A stretch of 64,000 bases of DNA from an uncultured Pelagibacteraceae bacterium (GTDB lineage Bacteria > Pseudomonadota > Alphaproteobacteria > Pelagibacterales > Pelagibacteraceae): positions 1 through 64,000 of the forward strand of contig CACEDU010000003.1 of NCBI GenBank assembly GCA_902558435.1. The letters are read 5' to 3'. Every line of letters begins with the position of its first letter. Positions within the stretch are counted from its first letter, which is position 1. Both the position numbers and the translations under genes were made by a program. Positions 23,609-38,306 of the stretch are shown here, piece by piece. The notes below the pieces were generated by a model. The model was not told where the DNA came from, did not search any database, and saw only the letters and a list, made by a program, of their open reading frames with translations.

Positions 23609-24457
23609 GTGGAAATAGTTACAAAAATAGCTCCAATCGCTTTAGCACTTATAATGTTAGGTCTAGGGTTAGGTCTAACTGGAAGAGACTTTTTAAGGGT
23701 GATAAATAATCCTAAAGACTTTGTAATTGGATTTTTCTGCCAACTGTTACTTTTGCCGATAGTTGCGTATATTTTAATATTAATATTAAATTTGCCTGTT
23801 GAGATTGCATTAGGCATTATGATTATTGCTGCTGCACCAGGGGGCGTTACAACAAATGTTATGACCAAATTTGCAAATGGTGATGTGGCTTTGTCCATTT
23901 CATTAACTGCAATAATTAGTTTAATTAGTATAATTTCAGTTCCATTTATTGTTTTAAAATCAGCTGATTTACTTGGAGTTACTAATATCTCAGCAGATAT
24001 TACTATGACAGCAATTACACTTAAAATGGCATTGGTTGTTACTGTGCCAGTAATTTTAGGCATGATTATTAGAAAATTTGCAGATAATTTAATTTCCTCA
24101 AATCTTTCGATTGTTAATAAAATAACAACAGCTTTGTTCGTTATTGTATTTGCTGCCATTTGGATTGAAGAAAGAGAAAATATTTTTAATTACTTAAAAC
24201 AAGCAGGCTTTGCAGTATTAGTATTGAATGTTGTGATGATGATACTTGCTTATTACATAGCCAAATTCTTTGCAACCGGAATGAAACAAAGAAAATGTAT
24301 TTCGATAGAATGTGGTTTACAAAATGGAACTTTGGCAGTGTTTGTAGCAACACAAATGTTTAATGATATTGCTTATATGATACCAACAGCAGCATATGCT
24401 CTTATAATGTACTTAACTGGCTTCGCTTTAATCTTTATACTTCGAAGAGCTAATTAA
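23609..24457 (+). CDS. BASS-family sodium/solute symporter
   Basis: This 282-aa protein has about nine to ten membrane segments and the bile acid:sodium symporter (BASS) pattern, including 'A-A-P-G-G-V-T-T-N' in the first half and 'E-C-G-L-Q-N-G-T-L-A' in the second, both close to the sodium and substrate sites. Relatives carry bile acids, pantothenate, pyruvate or other organic anions. The GTG start at 23609 has an AAGGA site 6 nt upstream. It is divergent from the phosphate acyltransferase gene, so an organic anion linked to that pathway is a reasonable guess. Confidence 0.88.
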   Translation: MEIVTKIAPIALALIMLGLGLGLTGRDFLRVINNPKDFVIGFFCQLLLLPIVAYILILILNLPVEIALGIMIIAAAPGGVTTNVMTKFANGDVALSISLTAIISLISIISVPFIVLKSADLLGVTNISADITMTAITLKMALVVTVPVILGMIIRKFADNLISSNLSIVNKITTALFVIVFAAIWIEERENIFNYLKQAGFAVLVLNVVMMILAYYIAKFFATGMKQRKCISIECGLQNGTLAVFVATQMFNDIAYMIPTAAYALIMYLTGFALIFILRRAN

Positions 24458-24468
24458 TTTTTACTTTT

Positions 24469-25401
24469 TCAAAATATTTTACAAACCAAATCCGACAAAG
24501 AAGAGATATTTTGTTCTTGAATTCTAATAGTATCGCTTAATGCTTGATCCTTCATATTTATAGTGAATTGTTTTTTTTTATTAACACTAATATATTTATT
24601 TTTTAATAAATAATTCAATTTTCTTACAACTGTAGGTCTTGGAATATGAGTTATCTCAGAAATTGACATAGTATTTACCCCGCCTTCTTCAACATTGACC
24701 ATATCTTTCTCCCATTCTGAAAAATTTAAACCAACACCCTCATAAGATTTATTTACTATTGAGTGACATGTTATAACCATGCCTACTGAATAAATTTCAA
24801 GATCCCCTAATTGCTTTTTCCATCTTAAGGTTAAAGTAAAAATAAATATATAAAAATAGTACCAACAATATGAAAAGTTATCCTTTAAATGCTCTGATAC
24901 TTCGTTGACATTTAAAGATTTGTCTATTAAATTTTCTATTTTCAATATTTCAGAAATTTTTGATAATAATGCGCTCAAATTTTTAAGAGTATTTTTCGGC
25001 TGTACCAGTCTATAAGCCGACCTATCTATATAAATTTTTTTTCCAATTTTTTGAAGAACGTTTAATTTTTCAAGGTCGAGAATTTTTCTTCTAGTACTTT
25101 CCTTTGGAATATTTAAACTTTTTGATATTTCAATTATATTAATTCGATCTAATTCCAAAGATTTATCAAACATAAAAAAATTATCATAGCTCTCTATTTT
25201 TTTAATTTGTATGTAGCGCTCAAAATCTTTGTTTATTAGATAAAGAATTATCCTGTACTTATCTATATCGTTAAAAACTTCATATGAAGAATTCATCCAT
25301 TCAGATATTAATCTGTAGTATGTTGGGGCAAGTTTTTCAAAATTTCCTGTGATTAATTTTTGAATATTTTTTTTTATGAGATTATTAAGGATTTTAGTCA
25401 T
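24469..25401 (-). CDS. Putative transcriptional regulator with two winged-helix domains
   Basis: The 310-aa product has two separate winged-helix segments: residues about 88-128 ('I-I-E-I-S-K-S-L-N-I-P' then 'S-T-R-R-K-I-L-D-L-E-K') and about 243-282 ('M-S-I-S-E-I-T-H-I-P-R' then 'V-V-R-K-L-N-Y-L-L-K'). Both have the 'helix, turn I-P, recognition helix, wing' look of MarR/IclR-type domains. The middle (170-235) is hydrophobic and aromatic and could bind a ligand or dimerise. I do not recognise the family. Two direct-repeat copies of a 15-bp motif lie 30-76 nt upstream of its start, suggesting autoregulation. Confidence 0.72.
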   Translation of the reverse strand: MTKILNNLIKKNIQKLITGNFEKLAPTYYRLISEWMNSSYEVFNDIDKYRIILYLINKDFERYIQIKKIESYDNFFMFDKSLELDRINIIEISKSLNIPKESTRRKILDLEKLNVLQKIGKKIYIDRSAYRLVQPKNTLKNLSALLSKISEILKIENLIDKSLNVNEVSEHLKDNFSYCWYYFYIFIFTLTLRWKKQLGDLEIYSVGMVITCHSIVNKSYEGVGLNFSEWEKDMVNVEEGGVNTMSISEITHIPRPTVVRKLNYLLKNKYISVNKKKQFTINMKDQALSDTIRIQEQNISSLSDLVCKIF

Positions 25402-25430
25402 TTTTTGCAGATAACTATTCTATTATTTTA

Positions 25431-25477
25431 AACCCAAAATGGACATAAAATTAATTGTGCATAACCCATTTTGGACA
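25431..25477. promoter_or_regulatory. Two direct-repeat copies of an AACCC(A/T)4-rich operator-like motif
   Basis: The sequences AACCCAAAATGGACA (25431-25445) and AACCCATTTTGGACA (25463-25477) lie 32 bp apart, about three helical turns, and each is followed by a related AATTAATT tail (to about 25490). The inner CCAAAATGG and CCATTTTGG are reverse complements of each other. They sit between the divergent double-wHTH regulator gene and a small membrane-protein gene. Similar 15-mers lie at 29932-29946 and 36824-36838. Confidence 0.65.
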
Positions 25478-25522
25478 CAGAATTAATTTTTACAAATTAA
25501 ACATGTGTTTAAATAAAACCAT

Positions 25523-25735
25523 ATGAGTTATAATAAGAATAGTAGAGCATCTGATATTGAAATTTCTTCTCAATTAACAGGTGACGTAAATATTGATACC
25601 CCTCATAAAGTAAATATCAGTGCTCTCAAACTCAGAATTATTCAAAAAGAAAAAAAAGAAATTTTAAAGAATAGAGTTTTCATTTTAATGTTTTTTTTAA
25701 TCCTAGGCACTATTGGGTACTTTGTGTCTAATTAA
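25523..25735 (+). CDS. Small single-pass membrane protein of unknown function
   Basis: This 70-aa protein has a polar N terminus with two S/D/N-rich stretches, a lysine-rich helix (I-I-Q-K-E-K-K-E-I-L-K) and one C-terminal membrane helix (about residues 52-68), so it is probably tail-anchored with the N terminus in the cytoplasm. I do not recognise it. No Shine-Dalgarno sequence is seen before the ATG. It is divergent from the double-wHTH regulator, and the repeated operator-like motif lies 46-92 nt upstream. Confidence 0.55.
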   Translation: MSYNKNSRASDIEISSQLTGDVNIDTPHKVNISALKLRIIQKEKKEILKNRVFILMFFLILGTIGYFVSN

Positions 25736-25825
25736 GTCTTTTTAGGTTCATAATTTAAATTAAATTCAAGTACTTAAAGGCATATCAACTGTTGTAATAA
25801 ATAATAATTAGTAAATAATAAAGTA

Positions 25826-26161
25826 ATGAAACCATTTACTGGATATCTAATATTAGCTTTAGGAATATCCACAGGAATAGCAGCAAATAGTTTTGCAAAA
25901 ATTTCTGAAGGATTTACTAAACTAACTCCTACAATTGCTTGCTTACTTTTAATGACTGTAACAATGTTTTCTTTAGCAAAAGCGATGTCTGTAATACCTG
26001 TTGCTTTTAGTTACTCTACTTATAGTGGTTTAACAGTAGCAGGAGTAGTAATCTTTGGTATGTTAAAATATAATCAAGTTCCTAATGTTTATGGTTTTGT
26101 TGGAATTTGTTTAATCGTGACAGGTGTTATAATGGTAAATTATTTAGGGCGAGCTGGCTAA
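25826..26161 (+). CDS. SMR-superfamily small membrane protein without the TM1 glutamate (second copy)
   Basis: This 111-aa, four-helix protein aligns with EmrE from 'S-E-G-F-T' after TM1 through 'G-V-I-M-V-N-Y' in TM4. As in the protein at 6972-7307, TM1 contains no acidic residue (the Glu14 position is Gly), and the TM3 tryptophan is replaced, here by Tyr in 'Y-S-T-Y-S-G'. Both share 'A-N-x-F-A-K' in TM1, so they form one subgroup rather than independent losses. Transport of small metabolites, or partnering another SMR chain, is possible; drug/proton antiport is unlikely. Confidence 0.82.
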   Translation: MKPFTGYLILALGISTGIAANSFAKISEGFTKLTPTIACLLLMTVTMFSLAKAMSVIPVAFSYSTYSGLTVAGVVIFGMLKYNQVPNVYGFVGICLIVTGVIMVNYLGRAG

Positions 26162-26171
26162 AAATTTTTTA

Positions 26172-27176
26172 CTATTTTAAAAGACTTCGAATATCTTTTT
26201 TTATATTTTCTGGTATTTTAATTCCAGATTTAAAATTTTTTTTATATCTTCTTAATTTATTTTCTCCAGGGTATAATATTTCTTCTAGACCTTTTAGTTT
26301 AGGAAGTTTTTTGATTCTTTTAATATTTTCTCTAATTCTGGTTTTAAAATTTGATTGAAATAAATTTGCTTTCATTACTATAAATAAATGTCCAATATTT
26401 TGCGGTCCAGAAAAATCATCAAATGGATCTTTTACTTTTCCACCGTGATTACCTCCAGTATAAACTCCACTTAAAATATCGACCATCCATGCAAGACCAG
26501 AACCTCTAAAACCTGCAATAGGGAGCTGAACACCTTCAAGAGCCCTCATGGCATTGGTAGTAGGGTTACCAAATTTATCTAGAGCTACACCTTTAGGTAT
26601 TTTTGAATTAGTTATTGATGCTACTCTAATTTTTCCTCTATTAATCATAGAAACAGATGTATCTAAAATGAAAGGTGTTTTAGATCCTGTTGGTGATCCA
26701 AAGCAAATAGGATTGGTGCCAAATAATGATTTAATAGCACCATGTGGAGCAATTGCTGGTGGTGCATTAGTAAAAACTAAAACAATCATGTTTTTCTTAA
26801 CTGCTCGCTCTGCGTAATATCCTGACATTCCATAATGACCACTATTTTTAACAGCCACTAATCCTATTCCAGTTTTTTTTGCATTTTGTATAGCTTTTTT
26901 TATTGCTGTATCGGCAGCAACAAAACCAATGCTATCATCAGCATTTATATGGGCTACAGATTGAGAAATATTTTTAATTTTTATTTTAGGTTTAGGGTTA
27001 ATTAATTGATGATTTATGCGATCACAGTACATTTTTAGCCTTGATAAACCATGTGTTGGAGCACCAACTAATTCAGCATTAATTATTGCATCAGCGCAGA
27101 TTATTGAATGACTTTTTGAGAGTTTATATTTTCTAAATATTTCGACTATAATTTTTTTTAGTTTATTTTTTTCCAT
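26172..27176 (-). CDS. Ldh_2 family (malate/L-lactate/sulfolactate-type) NAD(P) dehydrogenase
   Basis: This 334-aa protein is a member of the malate/L-lactate dehydrogenase family unrelated to classic Rossmann LDH. It has 'G-A-P-T-H-G-L-S-R-L', 'N-S-G-H-Y-G-M-S-G-Y-Y', 'P-H-G' and 'G-T-N-P-I-C-F' plus a 'G-F-R-G-S-G-L-A' segment. Family members act on malate, L-lactate, ureidoglycolate or (R)-sulfolactate (ComC). Given HpsN-like and SuyB genes in the window, a sulfolactate substrate is possible but unproven. It overlaps the epoxide hydrolase gene by 19 nt and is the last gene of a three-gene operon with an aldehyde dehydrogenase. Confidence 0.85.
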   Translation of the reverse strand: MEKNKLKKIIVEIFRKYKLSKSHSIICADAIINAELVGAPTHGLSRLKMYCDRINHQLINPKPKIKIKNISQSVAHINADDSIGFVAADTAIKKAIQNAKKTGIGLVAVKNSGHYGMSGYYAERAVKKNMIVLVFTNAPPAIAPHGAIKSLFGTNPICFGSPTGSKTPFILDTSVSMINRGKIRVASITNSKIPKGVALDKFGNPTTNAMRALEGVQLPIAGFRGSGLAWMVDILSGVYTGGNHGGKVKDPFDDFSGPQNIGHLFIVMKANLFQSNFKTRIRENIKRIKKLPKLKGLEEILYPGENKLRRYKKNFKSGIKIPENIKKDIRSLLK

Positions 27177-28330
27177 TTAATATTTTTTAAATCTTTATTA
27201 AAAAATGAAAGGATATCACCAACCAAAATATCTGGTTCTTCCAAAGCTGCAAAATGACCACCGTTCAGAAATTTATTCCATCTTTTTACATTAAAAATTC
27301 TATTAACATATGATTTTGGAGGCCATTCTAACATTTCTTTAGGAAAAATTGCTATTGCAGTAGGTACTTTTATTTTTTTAAAATTTTTTGGAAAAGATCT
27401 TCCACCTTCTTTTCTTCTGCCAAAATATATCCAACTAGCAGTATTAAAAGTTTTGGTTATTATATAAATCATTATATTTGATAATAATTCATCCTTTGAG
27501 AAAGTTTTTTCTATCTTACCCATTTTTAGATCTGACCAACCATGAAATTTTTCCAAAATCCAGGCTGCTGTACCTACAGGACTATCTATCATTGCATAAG
27601 ATAAAGTTTGAGGTTTTGTGGCTTGTTGTGTTCTATATCCCTCTTGTGTTATTTGATCAAAATTAAATTTTTTTTCCCATTTTCTCTCTTTACTATTTTT
27701 TGGTCCTTTTGGATGTCTAAGCGGTAAACAATTAATATGTATTCCTTTACAATATTTTGAACTATCAAGACCTATCCATCCAGCAATAGTAGCTCCCCAG
27801 TCACCACCTTGTACAAAATAGTTTTTGTAGCCCAAGTTTTTAATCATAAATTTATTTAAAATTTTTCCTATTTTTCTTGGACCCAATGCTTTGTTGATTT
27901 GAGATGAAAATCCAAATCCTGGCAATGAGGGAACAATTACATCAAATCCATCTTCAATTTTCCCCCCAAATTTTTCTGGGTGAGCAAGTTTTGGAATGAT
28001 ATTTAAAAATTCAGATATACTTCCTGGCCATCCATGCAAAAGTAATAATGGTCTAGAATTAGGATTTTTACTTTTTTCAAAAATAAAATGTAAGTTTATA
28101 TCTTCAACTTTCGTTTTATAATTTTTAAATGAATTGATTTTGTTTTCAAATTTTTTCCAATTATACTTTTTTATCCAGTATTTAGATATATTTTTTAGAT
28201 ATTTTAAGTTGGTTCCATACTCCCAACCATTCATATTTTGAGCAGCACTCCAAGGAAAGTTTCTTACTTTTTTATAGATCTCATTAAGTGTGCTTTTAGG
28301 CACACTTATTTTGTATTGTTTAATCATCAA
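27158..28330 (-). CDS. Epoxide hydrolase (EHN domain plus alpha/beta hydrolase fold)
   Basis: The 390-aa product begins with the EHN-type N-terminal region ('I-x-V-P-K-S-T-L-N-E-I' with 'W' and 'Y-L-K' segments). It continues with the hydrolase fold: oxyanion motif 'H-G-W-P-G-S', nucleophile Asp in 'G-G-D-W-G-A', and a C-terminal 'G-G-H-F-A-A-L-E-E-P' histidine. This is the layout of microsomal-type / limonene-independent epoxide hydrolases, which convert epoxides to diols. It starts where the aldehyde dehydrogenase gene ends (0 nt gap) and overlaps the Ldh_2 gene, so all three probably process one compound. Confidence 0.87.
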   Translation of the reverse strand: MMIKQYKISVPKSTLNEIYKKVRNFPWSAAQNMNGWEYGTNLKYLKNISKYWIKKYNWKKFENKINSFKNYKTKVEDINLHFIFEKSKNPNSRPLLLLHGWPGSISEFLNIIPKLAHPEKFGGKIEDGFDVIVPSLPGFGFSSQINKALGPRKIGKILNKFMIKNLGYKNYFVQGGDWGATIAGWIGLDSSKYCKGIHINCLPLRHPKGPKNSKERKWEKKFNFDQITQEGYRTQQATKPQTLSYAMIDSPVGTAAWILEKFHGWSDLKMGKIEKTFSKDELLSNIMIYIITKTFNTASWIYFGRRKEGGRSFPKNFKKIKVPTAIAIFPKEMLEWPPKSYVNRIFNVKRWNKFLNGGHFAALEEPDILVGDILSFFNKDLKNIKWKKIN

Positions 28331-29818
28331 TTAACTATGACTTATCCAAATTGTTTTTGTTTGAAGAAACGAATTTAGAGCTTCAGTACCTTGATCTCTA
28401 CTTAATGAACCTGATTGCTTATAGCCTCCAAATGGAGTTTTAATATCTCCTTCTGAAAATGTATTTACTGATATAGTTCCACAAGGCAAACTTTTAGCTA
28501 AATGAAACGCTCTATTTATGTCTTGTGTAAATACACTAGCATGTAATCCGTATTTAGAATTACTAGCAATTTTCAAAGCTTCCTCATCATTTTTTACTGT
28601 TAAAACACCTAACACTGGTCCAAATATTTCTTCTTGAGCGATGGTCATATTTTCTTTTAATCCATCAAATAGGGTTGGTTTTGCATAAAAACCTTTTTGC
28701 TTTTTGCTTGAAACTCCTCCAGATAAAAGTTTTGCTCCTTCATCTATCCCTTTTTGAATATATCCATCAACAGTTTGTAAATGTCCTTTTGAAATCATAG
28801 ACCCCATATTTGATTTTAAATCTAACGGATCTCCTACTTTAAGTTTTTTAACTTTTTTTATAACTTTATCTAAAAATTCGTCTTTAACTTTTTTATGTAT
28901 TATCTGTCTCATATTTGCTGAACAGTTTTGTCCACCGTTCCAAAATGCAGAATTCATTGCATTATCAATTAAATCATCTGTAATTTTAGCATCTTCTAAA
29001 ACTATAAATGGACTTTTTCCTCCCATCTCTAATGCAACAGGTTTTAAATTACTTTCACTTGAGTATTTTAAAAAATAACCACCTACTTCGGTAGATCCTG
29101 TAAAAGAAACTGCATCAACATCTTTGTGTCTACCTAAGGCCTCTCCAACATCACCATAACCTGGAAGTACATTTAAAACACCATCTGGTATTCCAGCTTC
29201 TTTTCCAATTTGAGCAACTCTAATTGCTGTAAGTGGTGTATCTTCTGCTGGCTTAATTATAACCGAGCAACCTGCTGCAAGAGCTGGCGCCATCTTCCAT
29301 ACAGCCATCATTAAAGGAAAGTTCCAAGGAACAATTCCAGCAACAACTCCTATTGGCTCTTTAACAATTAAACTTGTAATGGATGGTTCAGTTGGACCAA
29401 CTTTCCCAAATACTTTATCAATTAATTCTCCATACCATTGAAAATGCATTGGTGCGTCATTTGCAACTTCATTAATGCAGTCTGCGATAAGTTTACCAGT
29501 ATCTATACATTCTAAAACTGAATTTTCATCACCATGTTTTCTAAGCAATTCAGCAAATTTTAATAAAACTTCTTTTCTATGTTCAGGCGAACTCTTAGAC
29601 CAAACTCCACTATTGAAAGCTTTTCTTGAAACTTTAACTGCTAAATCAACATCTTTATGATTACATTTTGCAACAGCGCAAAGTTTTTTACCCGTTGCAG
29701 GATTGATAGTTTCGAACTTATTTCCATCGATTGCGTTTACATATCTTCCATTAATGAATGCTCTTCCTTCAAACTTGAGTTTATTGGCTATTGATTTATA
29801 TTTATTACCTGAGCTCAT
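28331..29818 (-). CDS. NAD(P)-dependent aldehyde dehydrogenase
   Basis: This 495-aa aldehyde dehydrogenase has the catalytic Glu motif 'L-E-M-G-G-K-S-P', the catalytic Cys in 'N-G-G-Q-N-C-S-A-N', the NAD-binding 'G-S-T-E-V-G' and 'P-W-N-F-P-L-M-M'. It resembles PuuC-type gamma-glutamyl-gamma-aminobutyraldehyde or betaine-aldehyde enzymes but the substrate is open. It is the first gene of an operon with the epoxide hydrolase and the Ldh_2-type dehydrogenase, consistent with aldehyde, epoxide and alcohol or hydroxy-acid steps. Confidence 0.92.
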   Translation of the reverse strand: MSSGNKYKSIANKLKFEGRAFINGRYVNAIDGNKFETINPATGKKLCAVAKCNHKDVDLAVKVSRKAFNSGVWSKSSPEHRKEVLLKFAELLRKHGDENSVLECIDTGKLIADCINEVANDAPMHFQWYGELIDKVFGKVGPTEPSITSLIVKEPIGVVAGIVPWNFPLMMAVWKMAPALAAGCSVIIKPAEDTPLTAIRVAQIGKEAGIPDGVLNVLPGYGDVGEALGRHKDVDAVSFTGSTEVGGYFLKYSSESNLKPVALEMGGKSPFIVLEDAKITDDLIDNAMNSAFWNGGQNCSANMRQIIHKKVKDEFLDKVIKKVKKLKVGDPLDLKSNMGSMISKGHLQTVDGYIQKGIDEGAKLLSGGVSSKKQKGFYAKPTLFDGLKENMTIAQEEIFGPVLGVLTVKNDEEALKIASNSKYGLHASVFTQDINRAFHLAKSLPCGTISVNTFSEGDIKTPFGGYKQSGSLSRDQGTEALNSFLQTKTIWISHS

Positions 29819-29931
29819 AAATTTTTTTCTATAAATTTAATTTTATTTTATATTTTATTTTTAAATCTAAGGCACCTTTAGACTAAAATAAATAGATTAA
29901 CCAACAATAATTAATACAACTTTTAATTGCA

Positions 29932-29946
29932 AACCCATTTTGATAA
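29932..29946 (+). promoter_or_regulatory. AACCCATTTT operator-like motif upstream of the TRAP operon
   Basis: AACCCATTTTGATAA at 29932-29946 shares its first eleven bases with the motif at 25463-25477 and is followed by an A/T-rich stretch like the tail there. It lies 85-99 nt before the ATG of the TRAP binding-protein gene, in the only sizeable gap of the region. This is the weakest of the four copies after position 11. Confidence 0.5.
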
Positions 29947-30030
29947 TAAAATTTTTCTTTTTTGTTTTACTTCGCACTCGATTTGAATTTAAATATCAAT
30001 AATTTAATTAAATTATAGGAGATAAATTAT

Positions 30031-31071
30031 ATGTTTACTAAAAAAATTTGTAAGACATTACTCACAGGTTTTGCGATTGCATTTTTTGCCCAAGCTGCTT
30101 ATGCAGAGATAACTCTAAAGCTTGGTACTACTGGTAGATTGGGTATGCCAATTGGTGACGCAATAGACCAGGCGTTAATACCAGCAATGGAGAAAGCATC
30201 TGGAGGTAAAATGAAAATTGAACCTCATTATCAAAGAAGCTTGTGTGCAGAGCAAAAATGTGGTGAACAAGCCAACCAAGGACTTATTGCTTTATGGACT
30301 AGTTCTACTGCAAACTATGGTAATTTTGGACCAGAGTTAGCAATTTTCGATTTACCATTTATATTCAAATCACTTGAAGATGCGAAAAGAATCTCAGATG
30401 AATGGTTAGCTGAAAGACAGTGTAAACTTGCTCTTGAAAATGCTGGTCATATTTGCCTTTCTGTATATTCAAGTGGTGGATTTAGACAGCTTGGAAATGC
30501 AACTAAACCTGTTCATGAACCAGATGATATGAAAGGACTTAAATGGAGAACTACTAAAAGTCCAGTTGAGTTCATGCTAGTTAAAAATTGGGGCGCAACA
30601 CCAACACCTTATGACTGGAGTCAATTATATCAAGGTCTTCAATCAGGTGTAGTTGAAGGTCAGTATGTTGCAAGTCCATGGCAGCACGTTGCAAAACTTC
30701 ATGAAGTTGCAAAATATTTCACTGAGATCGGAGGAATGTGGTCTGGAAATATTTTAGCAATGGATGCTAAACAGTACAATGCATTGTCTGACCAACAAAG
30801 AAAATGGTTACACGAAGCAGCAGATGCGTATGGAGAAAAAGTAAACGAGTTGGATAACGCTTGGATTAAAAATGGTGAAGATGCAATTAAAGCATCTGCT
30901 AAAGAGTGGTATGTGCCAACAGAAGCGGAAATGACTAAGTGGAGAGCAGGTGCAATCGGTGCTTGGTTAGACGCTAAGGGTACTTTTGAACCAGAAGTAG
31001 CTAAAAGAGTACTTTTAGAACAAGGTATGGATGGATTTGTAGCTCAGTTAGAAGCAGCTGGAGCTCTATAA
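30031..31071 (+). CDS. TRAP transporter solute-binding protein (DctP family)
   Basis: A 346-aa periplasmic binding protein with a signal peptide ('F-A-I-A-F-F-A-Q-A-A-Y-A'). Family features include 'Y-Q-R-S-L-C', the 'I-F-D-L-P-F' strand, 'G-L-K-W-R-T' and 'E-G-Q-Y-V-A-S-P'; the Arg in 'K-W-R-T' normally holds the carboxylate of the ligand. TRAP ligands are usually organic acids, and here a sulfonate such as DHPS (HpsKLM type) is an attractive possibility. The ATAGGAGATAAATT ribosome site is strong. All nine arginines are encoded by AGA, unlike in the two membrane-subunit genes that follow. Confidence 0.92.
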   Translation: MFTKKICKTLLTGFAIAFFAQAAYAEITLKLGTTGRLGMPIGDAIDQALIPAMEKASGGKMKIEPHYQRSLCAEQKCGEQANQGLIALWTSSTANYGNFGPELAIFDLPFIFKSLEDAKRISDEWLAERQCKLALENAGHICLSVYSSGGFRQLGNATKPVHEPDDMKGLKWRTTKSPVEFMLVKNWGATPTPYDWSQLYQGLQSGVVEGQYVASPWQHVAKLHEVAKYFTEIGGMWSGNILAMDAKQYNALSDQQRKWLHEAADAYGEKVNELDNAWIKNGEDAIKASAKEWYVPTEAEMTKWRAGAIGAWLDAKGTFEPEVAKRVLLEQGMDGFVAQLEAAGAL

Positions 31072-31092
31072 ATCTTCAAAGAAAACAATGTG

Positions 31093-31129
31093 AAGACCAT
31101 TTAGTTCTGTTTTAGAATTAGATGGTCTT
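31093..31129 (+). terminator. Hairpin between TRAP binding-protein gene and membrane-subunit genes
   Basis: A 16-bp stem (arms 31093-31108 and 31114-31129, with two G-U pairs) around a 5-nt loop GTTTT begins 21 nt after the binding-protein stop. A short A-rich tract follows, not a T run, so it may stabilise the upstream message or reduce read-through rather than terminate fully. It is the second of three hairpins found directly after binding-protein genes. Confidence 0.75.
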
Positions 31130-31161
31130 TACTCAAAAAAAATCATAACTTATAAATATCT

Positions 31162-32445
31162 ATGGAAAGTATTATTTTACTCGTAGTACTCCTTTTTCTA
31201 ATTTTATTAGGAGCTCCTATTGGTTTTATTTTAATACTGATACCATTTGTTTATATTCTTCTCACAGATGCAGTTCCTCTTGTTTTAATTCCTAGTCAAA
31301 TGTTTACCGCTATAGATTCAGTTCCATTGACCGCAATTGCATTCTTTATGTTGACGGGTGAATTAATGACAAGTGCAACTATTACTGACCGTTTAGTTGC
31401 TTTAAGTAGAGCGTTAATTGGGCGTATACGAGGGGGGTTGGCTCAAGTAAATGTACTTGTGAGTATGTTTTTTGCTGGCATGAATGGTTCTGTCGTAGCA
31501 GATACAGCTACAGTAGGAGCATTAGTTTTACCTGCAATGAAGAGAGCAGGTTATCCTGCTGCATTTTCAGCTGCGGTTACAGGTGTAAGTTCCACTATAG
31601 GAGGGATTATTCCACCTAGCATCATGATGATTGTGCTCGCAAACGCAACCGAGATTTCAATTGCGTCTTTATTTGCAGCCGGGATTGTTCCAGGTATTTT
31701 GATTGGTGTTGTGATAATGGTAATCAATCATTACTTTGCAGTTAAATATAACTTTGAGCGTAGCGATGAACCATTCTCAGTTCGTAGAGCTGGTAAAGAA
31801 TTATATCGCTCTTCATTTGCTCTTTTAATACCTTTAGTATTGGTAGGTTCAGTCATGGGAGGTGTGGCATCAGTTGTTGAGGCTGGAGCTATCACTGCTT
31901 TGGTTGCTTTATTTACAGGCGTATTTGTTTATCGAACTATCAAATGGAAAGATTGTACCAGTGCTTTTCGTCGGGCATTCCGTAATTCAGCAATGGTTTT
32001 TATTATAATAGCTGCTTCAGGACCTTTTAGTTGGTTACTCACTTCACTTGGTGCAATTGGTGATCTCGAAACTTGGCTTTTAGGGTTAGCAGACTCTCCT
32101 ATATTATTTATTTTGGCTTTGATATTATTCATCTTTCTTCTTGGAACGGTAATGGACTCAGCGGTTAACATTATAATTGTTGGTCCAGTATTAGTGAATG
32201 TTATGTCTCAAGCCGGCTTTCCAGAGGTGCAAGCAGCTATGGTTGTAATAGTTGGGTTCTTAATAGGATCAGTAACGCCACCAGTTGGTGTTGCCTACTT
32301 TACATCTGCAACAATAGCACAAGTCCGTCTTGAAAAGGTTGCTATCGCTTTAATTCCTTATCTGATTGGATTGTTTTTACTTTTATTTTTTATTCTTATT
32401 GTACCAGAATTAACTATGTTTCTTCCAAACCTATTGAGTAATTAA
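31162..32445 (+). CDS. TRAP transporter large membrane subunit (DctM family)
   Basis: This 427-aa protein has about twelve membrane segments, 'S-S-T-I-G-G-I-I-P-P-S' after the first substrate-channel segment, and 'G-S-V-T-P-P-V-G-V' near the C terminus, the two conserved DctM blocks. It carries the sodium-coupled transport pathway for the solute bound by the preceding protein. The gene order binding protein, large subunit, small subunit is less common than P-Q-M. Eleven of the 14 arginines use CGN codons, in sharp contrast to the AGA-only binding-protein gene. No Shine-Dalgarno sequence is visible. Confidence 0.93.
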   Translation: MESIILLVVLLFLILLGAPIGFILILIPFVYILLTDAVPLVLIPSQMFTAIDSVPLTAIAFFMLTGELMTSATITDRLVALSRALIGRIRGGLAQVNVLVSMFFAGMNGSVVADTATVGALVLPAMKRAGYPAAFSAAVTGVSSTIGGIIPPSIMMIVLANATEISIASLFAAGIVPGILIGVVIMVINHYFAVKYNFERSDEPFSVRRAGKELYRSSFALLIPLVLVGSVMGGVASVVEAGAITALVALFTGVFVYRTIKWKDCTSAFRRAFRNSAMVFIIIAASGPFSWLLTSLGAIGDLETWLLGLADSPILFILALILFIFLLGTVMDSAVNIIIVGPVLVNVMSQAGFPEVQAAMVVIVGFLIGSVTPPVGVAYFTSATIAQVRLEKVAIALIPYLIGLFLLLFFILIVPELTMFLPNLLSN

Positions 32446-32449
32446 TGAA

Positions 32450-32959
32450 ATGTTAAAATTTTTGAACAGCATAGATCGTTTTATCCATTGGATGTTGGAA
32501 GCTATGTGCTCACTCTTGTTAGCTGCTATGGTTGCTTTCACTCTTTATAATGTAACAATGCGATATGTTTTTAACAACCCTCCTGTTTGGGGGGATTTGC
32601 TAACAGTGTTAAGTAATATTTGGTTAATGTTTATAGCACTTTCTTTAACAGCACGAGACAATGAACATGTAGCTTTAAACTTAATTTATGAAAAATTACC
32701 AGAAAGAATTTCTTTATACATCCGCCAGTTCTGGAAAATTATGATTATGATAATTGGTGTTGTCTTAATTATTTATGGAATTGAACTTGTAGAGGGTATG
32801 CGAGGGAAGTACTGGGAAATGTGGTATTTTGAGATTAGTATGCAAGGTATTGAGTTCAAACCAAATTACATGCCTAAAAAATATGCAGTTGCTATCCTAC
32901 CATTAGCTGGATTTTTGACGACCATTGGTGCTGCTATTGGTTTTTTTAAAAAGGTCTAG
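32450..32959 (+). CDS. TRAP transporter small membrane subunit (DctQ family)
   Basis: A 169-aa protein with four membrane helices and the DctQ-type 'M-R-Y-V-F-N-N-P-P-V-W-G-D' motif after the second helix, then 'L-T-A-R-D-N-E-H-V' loops. DctQ partners DctM and is needed for assembly with the binding protein. It follows the large-subunit gene by 4 nt. Most of its arginine codons are CGN, matching the large-subunit gene but not the binding-protein gene. It ends convergently with the TauC-like gene. Confidence 0.88.
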   Translation: MLKFLNSIDRFIHWMLEAMCSLLLAAMVAFTLYNVTMRYVFNNPPVWGDLLTVLSNIWLMFIALSLTARDNEHVALNLIYEKLPERISLYIRQFWKIMIMIIGVVLIIYGIELVEGMRGKYWEMWYFEISMQGIEFKPNYMPKKYAVAILPLAGFLTTIGAAIGFFKKV

Positions 32960-32976
32960 TTCAAACAGTTTTAATT

Positions 32977-34902
32977 TTAGCCTTTGCCTCTCCAAGGTAT
33001 TGTTTTATCTATTATTTTTCTTAAAGTTACATCAAACAATAGACCAAGCATACCCATTATAAATATTGTTATCCAAATTACTTCATATTGAAAATATTTT
33101 TTCGCAACATTTTCAACAAAACCAATACCTGTTGTTCCAGCTAAAAATTCTGCTGCAACTAAAGTTCCCCAACACATTCCAACAGCGACTCTTATTCCAG
33201 TAAGAATTTCAGGTAAAGAATTTGGAAATATAACATGTCTAAGTATTTGTCTTTTTGATGCCCCAAGTGAATGTGCAGCATGAATTTTAGAAAGTTGTGT
33301 TCCAGATGCTCCAGCTCTAGCTGATATAATCATAATTGATAATGAAACCATAAATAATAAAAATACTTTACCTGTATTATCAATTCCAAGAACAGAAATG
33401 ATTAAAGGTGCCCAAGCTAATGGTGGTACAGGTCTGTATAGTTCGATTAAAGGATCAAAGAAACCTTTGGCAAATCTATTTAGTCCCATGAATAAACCCA
33501 ATGGCACCCCAATAATTATTCCAAACACTAATCCTAAAAATACTCTTAAGAAAGAGTCCCAGATATGACCATAAGGAACAGGTATTTTAAATAATTTAAA
33601 ATCACCTGTTACAATTTTTAATACTTTTCCTTTAAAGTTTTCTTTAACAATACCTTCACTTGTGTGAACAGGATATTCACCTGGTAAAATATCAGCAATC
33701 CAATCTGGTAAAATAAATCCAATAATTGAGCTGACATCTATCATTTCTATCCAAAGAAGAGGGATATTTTTGTAACCTACGCTTGGTTTAGACATTAATA
33801 TAAATTTATTAAAAGTATCTGAAGGTTTAGGTAACCATCTTCCTGATCCTTGTTCAGAACAACTTGGTCCACTAGCAACAATTGTTCCAGCTGGAAATAA
33901 AAGAATATCAATCAATCTTAGACCGGCTTGCTCACTTTCCTGAAGTTTATCAAATTCTACAATTGCCTTTTGCATTTCATTTAGAGCATTCGGTGGATAA
34001 ATACTTGCAAACTCTATTCTTCTTGCAATTTTGACAATATTTTTTGCATAATCAGATGCAATTTCTTCAGTGTCATTTAGATTTTTTCTATAAGCTTTGA
34101 CTTCATCTTTTAGTTGTTTAATAGAATTTTTGAATTGTGGATTGTGATTTCTTAATTTGAAAAATTTATCATTTATGATTTTAAGTTCTTCAGCTGCTGC
34201 TTGAAATTTCAATCCTTTTGCTGTTTCAGCAACAAATGGAACTTCTATAGTATTTTCTATTGATCCTGTTCCAGATCTTACTGTAATTATACCCCATTCA
34301 CCCTGTTCTGAAATTGCTTTAAGTCTATCATTTTTTTGATCATTAGTTTCAAATGGATAATCTTGCTTTTTAAAATTAGAACTTAAAAGTCTTATTTCTT
34401 TAGTCATCTCATCAATTTTTATTTTTGTATCCATTTCAATTAAATCTTCATTTGTTAAAAGAGGTATTAATTGTTTAGTCTTATTTATAAAACCAATTAA
34501 AATTGTTTTTTGTTGATTATTTAAATCTTTAGAATTCTGTATTTCAGATGTAATTTTTTTTAGATTTTTGTTCTCGATTTTAATAATTGAGGTACTTTTA
34601 AATTCTCTTTCTTCTATAGGAAATTGATATTTTAATCCTAATAACGATTCATTAATTTTTGCAACTTGACATAATTCATTTGCAGATTTTGGATAAAAAC
34701 CTTTTGCAATATCCCATGAATAATAAAGCCAAACTAATAATATTGCAGCACTACCAACAATAACCCAGTGTGTTCCTCCTTTTGCTCTTTCTGGATTACC
34801 AAATACTGCATCAACTTTTTCAGTTTGAATAAGTCTTCTCCCATAAAGTATACATCCAATAATAGATACAAAAATTAGTATTGTTACTATTTGGGTTAAC
34901 AT
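32977..34902 (-). CDS. tauC: TauC-type ABC transporter permease with a long N-terminal extension
   Basis: The 641-aa product ends in a normal TauC/SsuC permease of about 200 residues (442-641), with the EAA loop 'H-A-A-H-S-L-G-A-S-K-R-Q'. It is preceded by about 440 extra residues: two membrane helices (about 1-20 and 45-66), then a mostly soluble, helical and coiled-coil-rich section (about 75-330) and a further segment around 'F-P-A-G-T-I-V'. E. coli TauC has about 275 aa. The extension probably lies in the periplasm and may touch the binding protein. The gene is the last of the tauA-tauB-tauC set, 0 nt after tauB. Confidence 0.85.
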   Translation of the reverse strand: MLTQIVTILIFVSIIGCILYGRRLIQTEKVDAVFGNPERAKGGTHWVIVGSAAILLVWLYYSWDIAKGFYPKSANELCQVAKINESLLGLKYQFPIEEREFKSTSIIKIENKNLKKITSEIQNSKDLNNQQKTILIGFINKTKQLIPLLTNEDLIEMDTKIKIDEMTKEIRLLSSNFKKQDYPFETNDQKNDRLKAISEQGEWGIITVRSGTGSIENTIEVPFVAETAKGLKFQAAAEELKIINDKFFKLRNHNPQFKNSIKQLKDEVKAYRKNLNDTEEIASDYAKNIVKIARRIEFASIYPPNALNEMQKAIVEFDKLQESEQAGLRLIDILLFPAGTIVASGPSCSEQGSGRWLPKPSDTFNKFILMSKPSVGYKNIPLLWIEMIDVSSIIGFILPDWIADILPGEYPVHTSEGIVKENFKGKVLKIVTGDFKLFKIPVPYGHIWDSFLRVFLGLVFGIIIGVPLGLFMGLNRFAKGFFDPLIELYRPVPPLAWAPLIISVLGIDNTGKVFLLFMVSLSIMIISARAGASGTQLSKIHAAHSLGASKRQILRHVIFPNSLPEILTGIRVAVGMCWGTLVAAEFLAGTTGIGFVENVAKKYFQYEVIWITIFIMGMLGLLFDVTLRKIIDKTIPWRGKG

Positions 34903-35700
34903 TTAATTTTCTTTCCCCATTATTTCTTCTTCCATGTTCCAAATCATGGATAATATTTCTTCACGCTTAGATGAAAATTCTTTATTCTTTTTAATTTCTC
35001 TTAAATCCTCTTTTAAACCCATTTCTGCAAAAGGAAGATTGTACTCTTTATGTATCCTGCCTGGTCTTGGCGCCATTACATATAATCTTTCACCAAGCAG
35101 TAAGGCTTCCTCTACTGAGTGAGTAATTAAAATAATTGTTTTTCCTGTTTCTTTCCAAATCTTAAGAACTAAAGATTGCATTTTTTCTCTTGTTAGAGCA
35201 TCAAGAGCACCCAACGGCTCGTCCATTAATATTAAATCTGGATCATTTATAAGACATCTTGCAAGTGCAACTCTCTGCTGCATTCCTCCTGATAATTGAT
35301 ATGTAGGAGTATTGCCAAAACCTTTTAATCCAACTATTTCTAACCATTCATCAACTTTTTTAGCTGTTTTAATTGGATCTTCTTTTTTCATTCTAAGTCC
35401 AAAATCAACATTTTCAGCAACCGTTAACCATTCAAATAAAGCTCCTTGTTGAAATACCATTCCTCTTTCTACACCAGGACCATTAATTTCATTTCCACCA
35501 AGAACAATAGAGCCAGATGTTGGTCTTAAAAATCCTGCTGCTATATTTAAAAGTGTAGTTTTCCCACATCCTGAAGGTCCTAGGACTGTAAGTAGTTCGC
35601 CTTTTTTAAGAGTGAAACTTACATCTTTTAATGCATGAACAGTTTCTCCCTTAGGTGTTTTAAAGATCATATTTAGATCTTGAGAAACTAAATCACTCAT
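34903..35700 (-). CDS. tauB: Taurine/sulfonate-type ABC transporter ATPase
   Basis: A 265-aa ABC ATPase with Walker A 'G-P-S-G-C-G-K-T-T', signature 'L-S-G-G-M-Q-Q-R', Walker B 'L-I-L-M-D-E-P-L-G-A-L-D' and 'I-T-H-S-V-E-E-A', the pattern of TauB/SsuB/nitrate-type importers. It powers uptake of taurine or another sulfonate or amine through the TauC-type permease. The start has no visible Shine-Dalgarno sequence, and a hairpin terminator lies between it and tauA, so expression should be far below that of tauA. Confidence 0.9.
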   Translation of the reverse strand: MSDLVSQDLNMIFKTPKGETVHALKDVSFTLKKGELLTVLGPSGCGKTTLLNIAAGFLRPTSGSIVLGGNEINGPGVERGMVFQQGALFEWLTVAENVDFGLRMKKEDPIKTAKKVDEWLEIVGLKGFGNTPTYQLSGGMQQRVALARCLINDPDLILMDEPLGALDALTREKMQSLVLKIWKETGKTIILITHSVEEALLLGERLYVMAPRPGRIHKEYNLPFAEMGLKEDLREIKKNKEFSSKREEILSMIWNMEEEIMGKEN

Positions 35701-35733
35701 AAGATAACTTTATATAAAAATTTTATTAAAAAA

Positions 35734-35763
35734 AATAGGCGCTAATTTTGGTTAGCGCCTATT
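35734..35763 (-). terminator. Intrinsic terminator-like hairpin between tauA and tauB
   Basis: Arms 35752-35763 and 35734-35745 form a perfect 12-bp GC-containing stem around a 6-nt loop. On the minus (tau operon) strand the hairpin is followed by eight T residues, the classic intrinsic terminator form. Because tauB and tauC lie beyond it on the same strand, it should act as a partial terminator that favours tauA message. Confidence 0.85.
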
Positions 35764-35783
35764 AAATATTTTTACTCTTTAAA

Positions 35784-36725
35784 TTATAAAGGTAAGAAAC
35801 TTGTATCTACATTTCCACCTGGAGTTCCCATTCCTTTTAAGAATGCATCAAGGTTTCCACTTTCCATAGATTGTTTAGTTTCTTCTGGAGTTAAGAATTT
35901 AAATCCACTTAAAGTTTCTTTCATATCTGCAACTTTCATTTCAGAAGCTTTAGACATAGCATTCATATCACTCTTACCTGCTCTGTATCTGTCATTTGCT
36001 TCATGAGTTACTTCTATAAAAGTTCTTAACATTCCAGGATTTTCCTTCATAAATTTATCAGTTACTGAAGTAATATCTATTCCTAGAATTCCAGCTGCTC
36101 TTGCTTCATCTACTGTTAGTAGTCTTGAACCTACAGCGACTGCTGCTTTAATAGAGTTACCACCAAATAAACATGCCATTACAACATCACCACTTACTAA
36201 TGCAGCAGCTCCTTCTTCAGGATCCATCTGAATTATATCCATTTTACTTCTGTCAGCTCCAACTACTTTCATACTTTCATCAAATACATATTCAGCCATT
36301 GTTCCTAATGGAACTGCAACTTTTTTACCTTCTAATTCAGTTGCATTAGCTTTTGTAATTCCAGAAGCGTTAGATGTAACACAAGTAGTTCCGCCCATTC
36401 CGTATTCCATAGCAATATCAACTAACTTGATAGGTGCATTAGATTTTACAGCATTAATAAAAGGCACTAGACCTTGTGAATAAGATATATCAATGTCTCC
36501 TGCTAGCATTGCATCTGTCATTGCTCCACCATTTGTGAAGTTTGTCCATTTTACTGGAACTCCAAGAGCTTTAGCAAAATTCTTTTTTTGCATGTCCTCT
36601 AGATTTGGACTAGGCCATTCTAGAAAGTATGCAACCCTAACTTCATTTGCAGCAGCATTAGCAGCTGAAATTGATAGATTGAGAGCAAATAAACTTCCTA
36701 AAATAAAACTAATTATTTTCTTCAT
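35784..36725 (-). CDS. tauA: Taurine-type ABC transporter substrate-binding protein
   Basis: This 313-aa SsuA/THI5-like binding protein has a signal peptide ending in 'A-N-A-A'. The mature N-terminal strand is 'E-V-R-V-A-Y-F-L-E-W-P-S-P-N', followed by 'A-M-L-A-G-D-I-D-I-S-Y-S-Q-G' and 'G-K-K-V-A-V-P-L-G-T', matching TauA/AtsR-type taurine or aliphatic sulfonate binding. An aromatic/acidic pocket for the amine and sulfonate is plausible, but the ligand is inferred from genomic context (Tpa, Ald). The strong AAGGAGATAAA ribosome site precedes the ATG. An AACCCATTTTAGACA motif lies about 100 nt upstream. Confidence 0.88.
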   Translation of the reverse strand: MKKIISFILGSLFALNLSISAANAAANEVRVAYFLEWPSPNLEDMQKKNFAKALGVPVKWTNFTNGGAMTDAMLAGDIDISYSQGLVPFINAVKSNAPIKLVDIAMEYGMGGTTCVTSNASGITKANATELEGKKVAVPLGTMAEYVFDESMKVVGADRSKMDIIQMDPEEGAAALVSGDVVMACLFGGNSIKAAVAVGSRLLTVDEARAAGILGIDITSVTDKFMKENPGMLRTFIEVTHEANDRYRAGKSDMNAMSKASEMKVADMKETLSGFKFLTPEETKQSMESGNLDAFLKGMGTPGGNVDTSFLPL

Positions 36726-36823
36726 TTTATCTCCTTAATTAAATTTAATTAGCGTCATTTAAGTTCAATTTTGAATATAAGTAAATGAATTTTGTAGTCA
36801 TCATTAGTACAGGTAAATAAAGA

Positions 36824-36838
36824 TGTCTAAAATGGGTT
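36824..36838 (-). promoter_or_regulatory. AACCCATTTTAGACA operator-like motif upstream of tauA
   Basis: Read on the minus strand, 36838-36824 is AACCCATTTTAGACA, identical to the regulator-upstream copy AACCCATTTTGGACA except for one base. It lies about 99-113 nt before the tauA ATG and about 115-129 nt before the divergent aminotransferase gene, so it could control either. Confidence 0.6.
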
Positions 36839-36953
36839 CAATTGTAGGTTGTATCTCATATCACCTTATTACATATTAAATGTGCGCATTAATTATTTTC
36901 TATTTTTTTAAATTAGTCTATGAGAGAGTATAGTTAACAATTTTAAAATATTT

Positions 36954-38297
36954 ATGAGTTCTGAAAAACCACAAATACCAAATTCATTAAATGAACATTG
37001 GATGCCATTCTCTTCAAATAGAGACTTTAAAGCAAATCCAAGATTAATTGTAGAAGCAAAAGGAGTTTATTTAAAAAATCATCAAGGACAAACTCAAATA
37101 GATGCAAGTTCGGGTTTATTTTGTAACCCATTAGGCCATGGTAGAGAGGAAATAATTGAGGCTATAACAAAACAATTAAGAACAGTTGATTACGCTCAAC
37201 CCTTTCAACAGGGCTTCGGAGGTTCATTTGAACTTGCTACAAGAATTTCAAAACATACACCAGGAAATTTAAATAGAATTTTTTATACTATTTGTGGTTC
37301 AACTGCTGTTGAAACGGCAATTAAAATTTCAGTTGCTTATCATAAGGCTAGAGGTGAAGGGCAAAGATTTAGATTTGTGGGAAGAGAAAGAGCTTACCAT
37401 GGTATGAATATTGGAGCTACCTCAGTTGGCGGAATGATTAATAATGTAAAAACTTTTGCAAGTGTTTTAATGCCAGGAGTTGTTCACATGAGACACACGC
37501 ATTTACCTGAACATAAATTTGTTTCTGGTCAACCAGAAACTGGAGCTGAGATAGCTGAAGATCTTGAGAGAATTTGTACTAACTTTGGATCTGAAAACAT
37601 TGCTGCATGTATTGTTGAACCGATTGCAGGGTCAACTGGAACACTTGTTCCTCCAAAAGGATACTTACAAAGACTAAGAGAGATATGTGATAAACATGGC
37701 ATTCTTTTAATTTTTGATGAAGTAATTACAGGGTGGGGAAGAACAGGTTCTCCATTTGCATCTCAAGAATACGGAGTAACACCTGACATAATTACTATGG
37801 CTAAGGCTACAACAAATGGAATTAGTCCTTTGGGAGCAGTTGCTTGCAAAGAAGAAATTTATGATACAGTAATGGATGGATCACCAAAAGGTTCAATTGA
37901 ACTATTTCATGGTTATACTTATTCTGGGATACCTGTTTCTGTTGCAGCAGGATTAGCAGTTCAGGATATTTTTGAGAAAGAAGATATATTTAATAGAGCT
38001 AAAAACTTAGCTCCTTATTTCCAAGAAGGTTTAATGTCTTTAAAAGATATTGATGTAGTAGATAATATAAGAGGATATGGAATGATGGGTGGAATTGATA
38101 TTAAAATGGATAAAAAACCTGGAGCAGCAGGATTTACTTGTTTTAAACATTGTTATGAATCAGGTGTCAATTTTAAAGCAACTGGGGACTGTTTAATCAT
38201 TGCTCCTATGTTCATTTGTGAAAAGAAACATATTGATGAAATAATCGATAAACTTAGAACAGGAATTACGAATTACTCTAAAAGTAAAAAAAACTAA
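36954..38297 (+). CDS. tpa: Class III omega-aminotransferase, probably taurine:pyruvate aminotransferase
   Basis: A 447-aa PLP-dependent class III aminotransferase with 'F-D-E-V-I-T-G-W-G-R-T-G', the PLP lysine in 'T-M-A-K-A-T-T-N-G' and 'Y-T-Y-S-G-I-P' near the dimer interface. The N terminus 'H-W-M-P-F-S-S-N-R' is common to omega-amino-acid:pyruvate and taurine:pyruvate enzymes. Its position beside tauABC (divergent) and directly upstream of alanine dehydrogenase points to taurine plus pyruvate giving sulfoacetaldehyde plus alanine. Beta-alanine or another omega-amino acid is a realistic alternative, and no xsc gene is in view. Confidence 0.85.
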   Translation: MSSEKPQIPNSLNEHWMPFSSNRDFKANPRLIVEAKGVYLKNHQGQTQIDASSGLFCNPLGHGREEIIEAITKQLRTVDYAQPFQQGFGGSFELATRISKHTPGNLNRIFYTICGSTAVETAIKISVAYHKARGEGQRFRFVGRERAYHGMNIGATSVGGMINNVKTFASVLMPGVVHMRHTHLPEHKFVSGQPETGAEIAEDLERICTNFGSENIAACIVEPIAGSTGTLVPPKGYLQRLREICDKHGILLIFDEVITGWGRTGSPFASQEYGVTPDIITMAKATTNGISPLGAVACKEEIYDTVMDGSPKGSIELFHGYTYSGIPVSVAAGLAVQDIFEKEDIFNRAKNLAPYFQEGLMSLKDIDVVDNIRGYGMMGGIDIKMDKKPGAAGFTCFKHCYESGVNFKATGDCLIIAPMFICEKKHIDEIIDKLRTGITNYSKSKKN

Positions 38298-38306
38298 CTC
38301 ACTTAT

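Follow-up and report, generated by a model that had tools for sequence, protein, structure and literature searches.

A conserved 15-bp box as the probable operator of a probably autoregulated tandem winged-helix regulator in Pelagibacteraceae

We analyzed a 64,000-nucleotide stretch of DNA (the window) from an uncultured Pelagibacteraceae bacterium, corresponding to C3:1-64000 of a 1.32-Mb genome that consists of 28 contigs and is 91.4% complete. This stretch contains a gene for a regulator with two predicted winged helices and four copies of a 15-bp motif, two of which lie in front of the regulator gene. The motif is most likely the operator of this regulator because two boxes are retained throughout the genus at the promoter of the regulator gene, where a box is found again in other genera; autoregulation is likely. 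An initial annotation of the window had proposed both points, which were supported by the comparison of relatives, and had further proposed that the regulator controls the uptake of sulfonates or related compounds. We favor, with a probability of about 0.7, a reading in which an autoregulated regulator and a small membrane protein would have been secondarily wired to sulfonate and TRAP uptake.

Occurrence of the 15-bp box in the window and the genome

The regulator gene, the small membrane-protein gene and the four boxes were located as follows.

24469..25401, minus strand: regulator, 310 amino acids, tandem duplication of a helical plus winged-helix unit (AlphaFold2, hhalign)
25431..25445, minus strand: predicted operator box 2, in the promoter of the regulator gene, TGTCCATTTTGGGTT (motif, conservation)
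25463..25477, minus strand: predicted operator box 1, TGTCCAAAATGGGTT, 32 bp from box 2 (motif, conservation)
25523..25735, plus strand: small protein, 70 amino acids, with a single hydrophobic segment at the C-terminus, encoded divergently from the regulator (open reading frame, profile, box upstream)
29932..29946, plus strand: weak box in the divergent promoter of the TRAP binding-protein and aldehyde dehydrogenase genes (matrix score)
36824..36838, plus strand: box TGTCTAAAATGGGTT in the tauA/tpa divergent promoter (motif)

All four sites are intergenic, and the two at the regulator promoter are 32 bp apart, start to start. The initial annotation had placed them at the same coordinates, with the copies at 25431-25445, 25463-25477 and 29932-29946 read on the plus strand and that at 36824-36838 on the minus strand. 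A position weight matrix built from 32 distinct boxes had an information content of 17.7 bits, and its C and GGG positions were conserved. The weakest of the four sites was that of TRAP, which scored 13.5 (the other three scored 23.8, 23.0 and 17.0) and has GATAA in its right half in place of GGACA.

The frequency of the motif had been put forward as a check on its significance. Three perfect matches to the pattern AACCCAWWWTRGACA were found genome-wide, all of them in the window, against approximately 0.06 expected from base composition, although this pattern was derived from those same three sites and the count describes more than it tests. When up to two mismatches were allowed, there was no excess, with 47 matches in the genome compared to 61 for a reversed control and 3 matches in the window compared to 3.1 expected. 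Loose motif counts were dropped as evidence for this reason, and the significance of the motif rests instead on comparative genomics. One match with a single mismatch, at C5:1664, was set aside as it lies inside a coding sequence.

Conservation of the box at regulator promoters

Spacing was examined in 60 regulator loci with distinct proteins, including that of the window. A box pair at exactly 32 bp was present in 41 of these loci, and the remaining spacings were 31 bp (5 loci), 20 bp (3 loci), 64 bp (1 locus) and 85 bp (1 locus), with fewer than two boxes in 9 loci. The paired box was kept in front of regulators down to approximately 28% identity. In other genera, the orientation of the box relative to the regulator is opposite.

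Promoters were scored over a span of 170 bp before the gene and 60 bp into the gene. Identical proteins were counted once for spacing and identical upstream sequences once for promoter counts, and regions that were too short were omitted. Of 138 distinct regulator genes, 121 had an upstream box with a score of at least 13, while 1.7 were expected by shuffling; conservation upstream of orthologues, a check that had been suggested for the motif, was thus observed.

Whole-genome searches were performed on 38 genomes chosen for holding the regulator, which comprised 35 of the 39 regulator-bearing genomes of the same-genus set described below (G236, G324, G326 and G334 were omitted) together with G000, G082 and G012. 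Exact matches to WGTYCAWWWTGGGTY numbered 64, compared to 9 for the reversed pattern, and 57 of the 64, spread over 34 genomes, lay within 400 bp of the regulator. The other seven matches were at the level of the control and hence no wider regulon is claimed. Five of these seven were inspected: four (L322, L323, L329 and L343) preceded either a small-family gene or one whose product was judged by eye to be a substrate-binding protein, and the fifth (L327) preceded another gene. When a single mismatch was tolerated, in a separate set of 43 genomes, the excess was modest (165 matches versus 113 in the control).

The small membrane-protein gene as a constant partner

The initial annotation had overlooked the most constant partner of the regulator, which is the small membrane-protein gene. 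It was present in 140 of 157 regulator loci, and 12 of the 17 loci without it also lacked the box. A box scoring at least 13 was detected upstream of 113 of 122 distinct small-family genes versus 0.9 expected; the nine genes without such a box were counted as misses, and some of these look like start-site artefacts or second copies. Outside the loci used for building the small-protein profile, the box was upstream in 66 of 68 small genes, most of them from close relatives, and in loci L291-L310, mainly from other genera, it was upstream in 8 of 9.

Where the small gene and the regulator have separated, the box usually remains with the small gene. Among loci in which the two genes are not divergent, the box was at the small gene alone in L155, L157 and L160, and boxes were at both genes in L151, L162, L298, L300, L301, L307, L308 and L309. 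In genome G193, a small-family gene (E = 5e-7) adjoining a gene for an SBF-family transporter is directly preceded by a box, 739 kb from the nearest regulator copy. The relatives of the small protein share a stretch resembling (K/R)V(D/N)(I/V)xxLxxR...KKE before the hydrophobic segment, and comparison of four small proteins with Pfam detected nothing better than E = 0.015.

Structure and distribution of the regulator

An AlphaFold2 model of the regulator, produced with 48 aligned relatives, had a predicted local distance difference test (pLDDT) score of 85.7 and a predicted template-modeling (pTM) score of 0.86, and contained two successive blocks, each of helices and a winged helix, in agreement with the two winged helices that had been predicted from the translation. 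The N-terminal and C-terminal halves were homologous by hhalign (probability, 98.5%; E = 2.9e-15; 145 columns). We propose a tandem winged-helix regulator family of Pelagibacteraceae, defined by two homologous units per chain and by TGTYCAWWWTGGGTT boxes at the promoter with an adjoining small membrane-protein gene. The window regulator has the two units, as judged from the AlphaFold2 model and hhalign, and the boxes and small gene are present in the window and absent from the sampled loci of genus g4.

Pfam and NCBIfam searches with the window regulator yielded short or weak matches, none of which reached its cut-off. The C-terminal helix-turn-helix (HTH) region scored 25.5 bits over 42 residues against Pfam TrmB (PF01978), for which the cut-off is 25.6. 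At an E value of up to 1e-3, 41 of the 48 relatives matched TrmB (best, 5.4e-9) and 37 matched HTH_Crp_2. A Foldseek search with the whole model found no match at an E value of up to 0.001, and a profile search of the PDB gave weak HTH matches only (best E value, 0.006).

Of 561 related named loci, 80 were covered; 79 of these are titled as Pelagibacteraceae or Pelagibacterales, and the other as an alphaproteobacterial metagenome-assembled genome. In a draw of genomes from the genus, the regulator was detected in 109 of 151 at an E value of up to 0.001. In a draw from the family, it was detected in 129 of 197 at an E value of up to 1e-6, some of these being short partial matches, and in 64 of the 78 that are at least 90% complete. 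In a draw from the class, 3 of 385 genomes had the regulator at an E value of up to 1e-12, and these were the genome analyzed here and two others of its genus. The family is apparently restricted to Pelagibacteraceae in the draws made. Half-size relatives matching one part of the regulator only were observed in G289 C1 (L343) and as frames of approximately 130 to 210 amino acids in other family-draw genomes; one half-size relative is immediately followed by a box and by a gene whose product was judged by eye to be a glycine-betaine-type binding protein.

A model for autoregulation

We infer direct binding, repression and a pseudo-dimeric mode of recognition from the sequence comparisons. As each chain has two homologous winged-helix units, a single molecule could act as a built-in pseudo-dimer and cover the imperfect dyad TGTYCA-WWW-TGGGTT, with one unit on each half-site. 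The two boxes, at 32 bp, are three helical turns apart and could accommodate two regulator molecules on one face of the DNA. The regulator would repress its own gene, and probably also the small gene, until a signal releases it.

Self-repression is suggested because the regulator-proximal box seems to overlie the promoter core. In 22 of the 41 box pairs with a 32-bp spacing, TTGAC is located 17 nucleotides before the CAWWWT of box 2, so that box 2 would cover the −10 region, an arrangement suggestive of negative autoregulation. The clade of the window has no recognizable TTGAC −35 element, and repression is hence read from part of the relatives. The coincidence of box 2 with a plausible −10 element in these 22 pairs could also mean that the conserved words are core promoter elements (−35/−10) instead of operators. 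This is very improbable, as the box carries about 17.7 bits with its conserved C and GGG positions, occurs as two full copies at a fixed distance of 32 bp, and has its orientation relative to the regulator reversed in other genera.

Several observations weigh against an autoregulatory operator that was later extended to uptake genes. TTGAC is found at 6 nucleotides in 6 of the 41 pairs and is absent from 13, and a scan of positions 25380-25560 with the sigma-70 consensus found no site. Seventeen of the 138 regulator promoters lack the box, including all seven sampled loci of genus g4 (L291-L297), which also lack the small gene and retain the HTH residues; as the same residues are kept, a changed recognition helix fails to explain the boxless g4 loci. 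Both regulator copies of G193 (L304 and L305) are without a box, and 48 of 80 tauA promoters are without one. The counts are not independent, many loci being closely related, the score threshold of 13 was set when the window scores were already known, and the small-protein profile was built from open reading frames first chosen beside boxes. As an observation on genus g4, an SBF gene adjoins the regulator relative in five of the seven loci.

The ownership of the operator by the regulator is read from proximity and conservation, and a different protein might bind the 15-bp box and have the regulator gene as merely one of its targets. The persistence of the g4 regulator with its HTH residues and without the box, and the G193 box that is far from the regulator copies, are compatible with such a protein. 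We regard this explanation as quite improbable, since 57 of the 64 exact genomic matches adjoin this single regulator gene.

A further elaboration of the autoregulatory reading is that the regulator, the small protein and the SBF transporter constitute a membrane sensing unit specific to Pelagibacteraceae. In such a unit, the small protein, acting via the conserved cytoplasmic stretch (K/R)V(D/N)(I/V)xxLxxR...EKKKE next to its C-terminal membrane segment, would tether or release the pseudo-dimeric regulator according to transport, so that a one-component regulator would work as a membrane-coupled switch. Different lineages would then have plugged in their uptake operons, of the taurine or TRAP type, by gaining the 15-bp box. 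We offer this elaboration as speculation and consider it unlikely.

The box and a second dyad at tauA and TRAP promoters

Upstream regions of the genes around the regulator were also scored for the box. A box of at least 13 was present in 32 of 80 distinct tauA regions (0.2 expected) and in 16 of 33 TRAP binding-protein regions (0.05 expected); the corresponding counts for other genes were 1 of 87 for ldh2, 0 of 107 for SBF, 0 of 80 for ald and 0 of 46 for smr. Lowering the threshold to 11 raised the counts to 34 for tauA (0.75 expected) and 17 for TRAP (0.2 expected). The tauA and TRAP box sites are above chance yet lineage-specific. In tauA promoters, the box was at approximately −113 in 21 of the 32 regions, in the clade of the window and mostly as TGTCTAAAATGGGTT, at approximately −146 in 10, in another clade and mostly as TGTCCAATGTAGGTC, and at −119 in 1. 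These differing positions speak for more than one gain of the box. In L114 and L132, the TRAP gene is in another arrangement with a dissimilar promoter, and the box is still present.

Two copies of a separate dyad stand next to boxes in the window.

29917..29929, plus strand: dyad CAACTTTTAATTG, common to tauA promoters, 2 bp from the TRAP box (shared motif)
36839..36851, minus strand: dyad CAACCTACAATTG, directly abutting the tauA box (shared motif)

In the form CAACYNNNRRTTG, this dyad was detected in 73 of 80 tauA regions and 31 of 33 TRAP regions, compared to 0.0 expected by shuffling, and was almost restricted to them, occurring in 1 of 135 regulator, 2 of 80 ald, 0 of 87 ldh2 and 0 of 107 SBF regions; the counts were made on the promoters from which the dyad had previously been read by eye. 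L114 and L132 are the two TRAP regions that lack it. A third word, TAGACTAA, was found in 77 of 80 tauA regions and 20 of 33 TRAP regions, and is located in the window at 36913-36920 on the minus strand and 29879-29886 on the plus strand. It might serve the divergent genes, those for the aminotransferase and the aldehyde dehydrogenase, as a promoter element. The tauA and TRAP divergent promoters look like versions of one architecture in which the 15-bp box is an optional addition.

The near-universal occurrence of the dyad in these promoters indicates that a second factor probably performs the main control of taurine genes. This factor could govern the tauA and TRAP operons to such an extent that the adjoining boxes are secondary or nearly irrelevant, a situation compatible with autoregulation of the regulator itself. 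The almost exclusive association of the dyad with these promoters, together with the lack of a box in 48 of the 80 tauA promoters, speaks for this alternative, and we consider it a plausible though lesser possibility. Against it are the derivation of the dyad from the promoters in which it was counted, the occurrence of the tauA box at more than one position and the presence of a box in both of the TRAP promoters that lack the dyad. Under the reading that we favor, the subclade of the window would have added the box to the tauA/tpa and TRAP/aldehyde dehydrogenase promoters, next to a dyad of a different kind, and the regulator would modulate these operons on top of another factor.

The link to the two transporters that had been drawn in the initial annotation therefore held in part: the boxes exceed chance at both promoters, but most tauA promoters lack one and almost all of both kinds carry the other dyad. 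In this subclade, the regulator could plausibly control sulfonate uptake, but such control does not appear to be its role in general. In favor of a dedicated sulfonate-uptake regulon, as initially proposed, are the position of the regulator inside a sulfonate island (an HpsN-like gene, tau genes, aminotransferase, Ald, phosphotransacylase and Xsc) and its co-occurrence with tauA. Among 44 same-genus genomes that are at least 94% complete, tauA was present in 38 of 39 with the regulator and in 2 of 5 without it (Fisher P = 0.003, with relatedness ignored); it was also present in 1 of 6 regulator-less genomes of other genera. The lack of a box in most tauA promoters, the location of the regulator away from the tau genes in G088, G135 and G176, and the identity of the constant target as the small membrane protein make such a regulon doubtful. 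The taurine island and the co-occurrence with tauA suggest that the signal may be a sulfonate or a flux, and a ligand of this type is as yet a suggestion from genomic context.

A box was also observed outside the window in G000 at C8:7632-7646 (L140, 1633). This box, TGATCAAATTGGGTT, had a score of 20.2, lies approximately 104 bp upstream of a gene whose product was judged by eye to be a TAXI-type TRAP binding protein, and is present in two close relatives, G121 and G102.

Comparison with known regulators

The recognition site of CRP is TGTGA-N6-TCACA, from which the 15-bp box of the regulator differs. In the N-terminal half, the helix and winged helix (model residues 46-136) aligned with Clr and CRP with a VIA-align Z score of 10.5 and a root mean square deviation of 3.0 Å over 80 residues, a middling Z score that may mean only a common arrangement. 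The CRP-like module is thus taken as a resemblance only, and the rest of the fold is not thereby shown to be new. Unlike CRP/FNR proteins, the regulator carries its winged-helix unit twice in one chain, and no Pfam match to a cyclic-nucleotide domain was found in the window regulator (E value of up to 1) or among the 20 families listed for 48 relatives (E value of up to 1e-3). Relative to the TrmB/MarR/IclR group, the C-terminal HTH resembles TrmB over 42 residues, but no TrmB sensor domain is among the Pfam matches of the window protein.

The taurine activator of other proteobacteria is TauR, of the MocR/GntR subfamily, which works on tauABC and related genes, combines a GntR with an aminotransferase-like domain, and in Rhodobacter capsulatus recognizes CTGGACYTAA (PMC5320631). 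The same paper describes MocR-type direct repeats as lying two or three turns apart on one face (PMC5320631). Unlike TauR, the regulator had no GntR or aminotransferase match in Pfam or NCBIfam, and the single GntR match of the genome (91.4% complete) was in a 238-amino-acid frame, which is too short for a MocR protein. This one-component regulator is unusual for its tandem build, for being apparently restricted to one family and for the small membrane partner that constantly accompanies it.

SAR11 bacteria rank among the most abundant marine cells, and their regulation is known to be sparse. A 2011 study of strain HTCC1062 stated that, without a genetic system, it was not possible to confirm what role regulators play (PMC3090418). 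A regulator that is common at the family level and has a precise predicted operator could be tested by in vitro binding without SAR11 genetics, and constitutes a testable candidate gene switch in some of the most abundant cells of the ocean. The arrival of the box at taurine and TRAP promoters in particular lineages would serve as a worked example of how regulons are rewired in streamlined genomes. Among the titles and abstract openings listed in literature searches, none described the regulator or its operator. A table of PMC2217521 names SAR11_1248 as a "winged helix dna-binding" gene, which may or may not belong to this regulator family.

The surrounding sulfonate island

The regulator is surrounded by genes for an HpsN-like enzyme, a phosphotransacylase, the SBF transporter, TauABC, an aminotransferase and Ald, with Xsc just beyond the window at C3:64405 (974 bits versus a cut-off of 676). 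The neighboring transporter and aminotransferase genes were as follows.

23609..24457, plus strand: SBF-family (bile acid:Na+ symporter type) transporter adjoining the regulator and lacking a box at its start (Pfam SBF, E = 9.9e-31)
30031..32959, plus strand: TRAP transporter genes for binding protein, large permease and small permease (small permease, 32450-32959, named by position)
32977..36725, minus strand: tauCBA, taurine-type ABC transporter (tauA matches taurine/SsuA models below their cut-offs; tauB named by position)
36954..39422, plus strand: class III aminotransferase (read as Tpa) and alanine dehydrogenase Ald (family matches, context)

Of 141 loci inspected, 126 had an SBF gene no farther than 8.5 kb from the regulator. 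The aminotransferase is read as Tpa from its context, and its NCBIfam match above cut-off was the omega-aminotransferase AptA. A search of Rfam at gathering scores found no match within the window. A malate/lactate-dehydrogenase-family enzyme in the island had sulfolactate dehydrogenase as its top NCBIfam match (256 bits, below the cut-off of 500).

The gene at 21305-22591 on the minus strand is named histidinol dehydrogenase by the NCBIfam hisD model, but sulfopropanediol 3-dehydrogenase HpsN (PDB 8v35) is far closer, with E values of 4e-161 for 8v35 and 4e-71 for the best histidinol dehydrogenase. This similarity suggests the use of 2,3-dihydroxypropane-1-sulfonate (DHPS) by this SAR11 lineage. 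Finally, the TauC-type permease at 32977-34902 on the minus strand is 641 amino acids long, with a permease match confined to residues 444-640 and a long additional N-terminal part.

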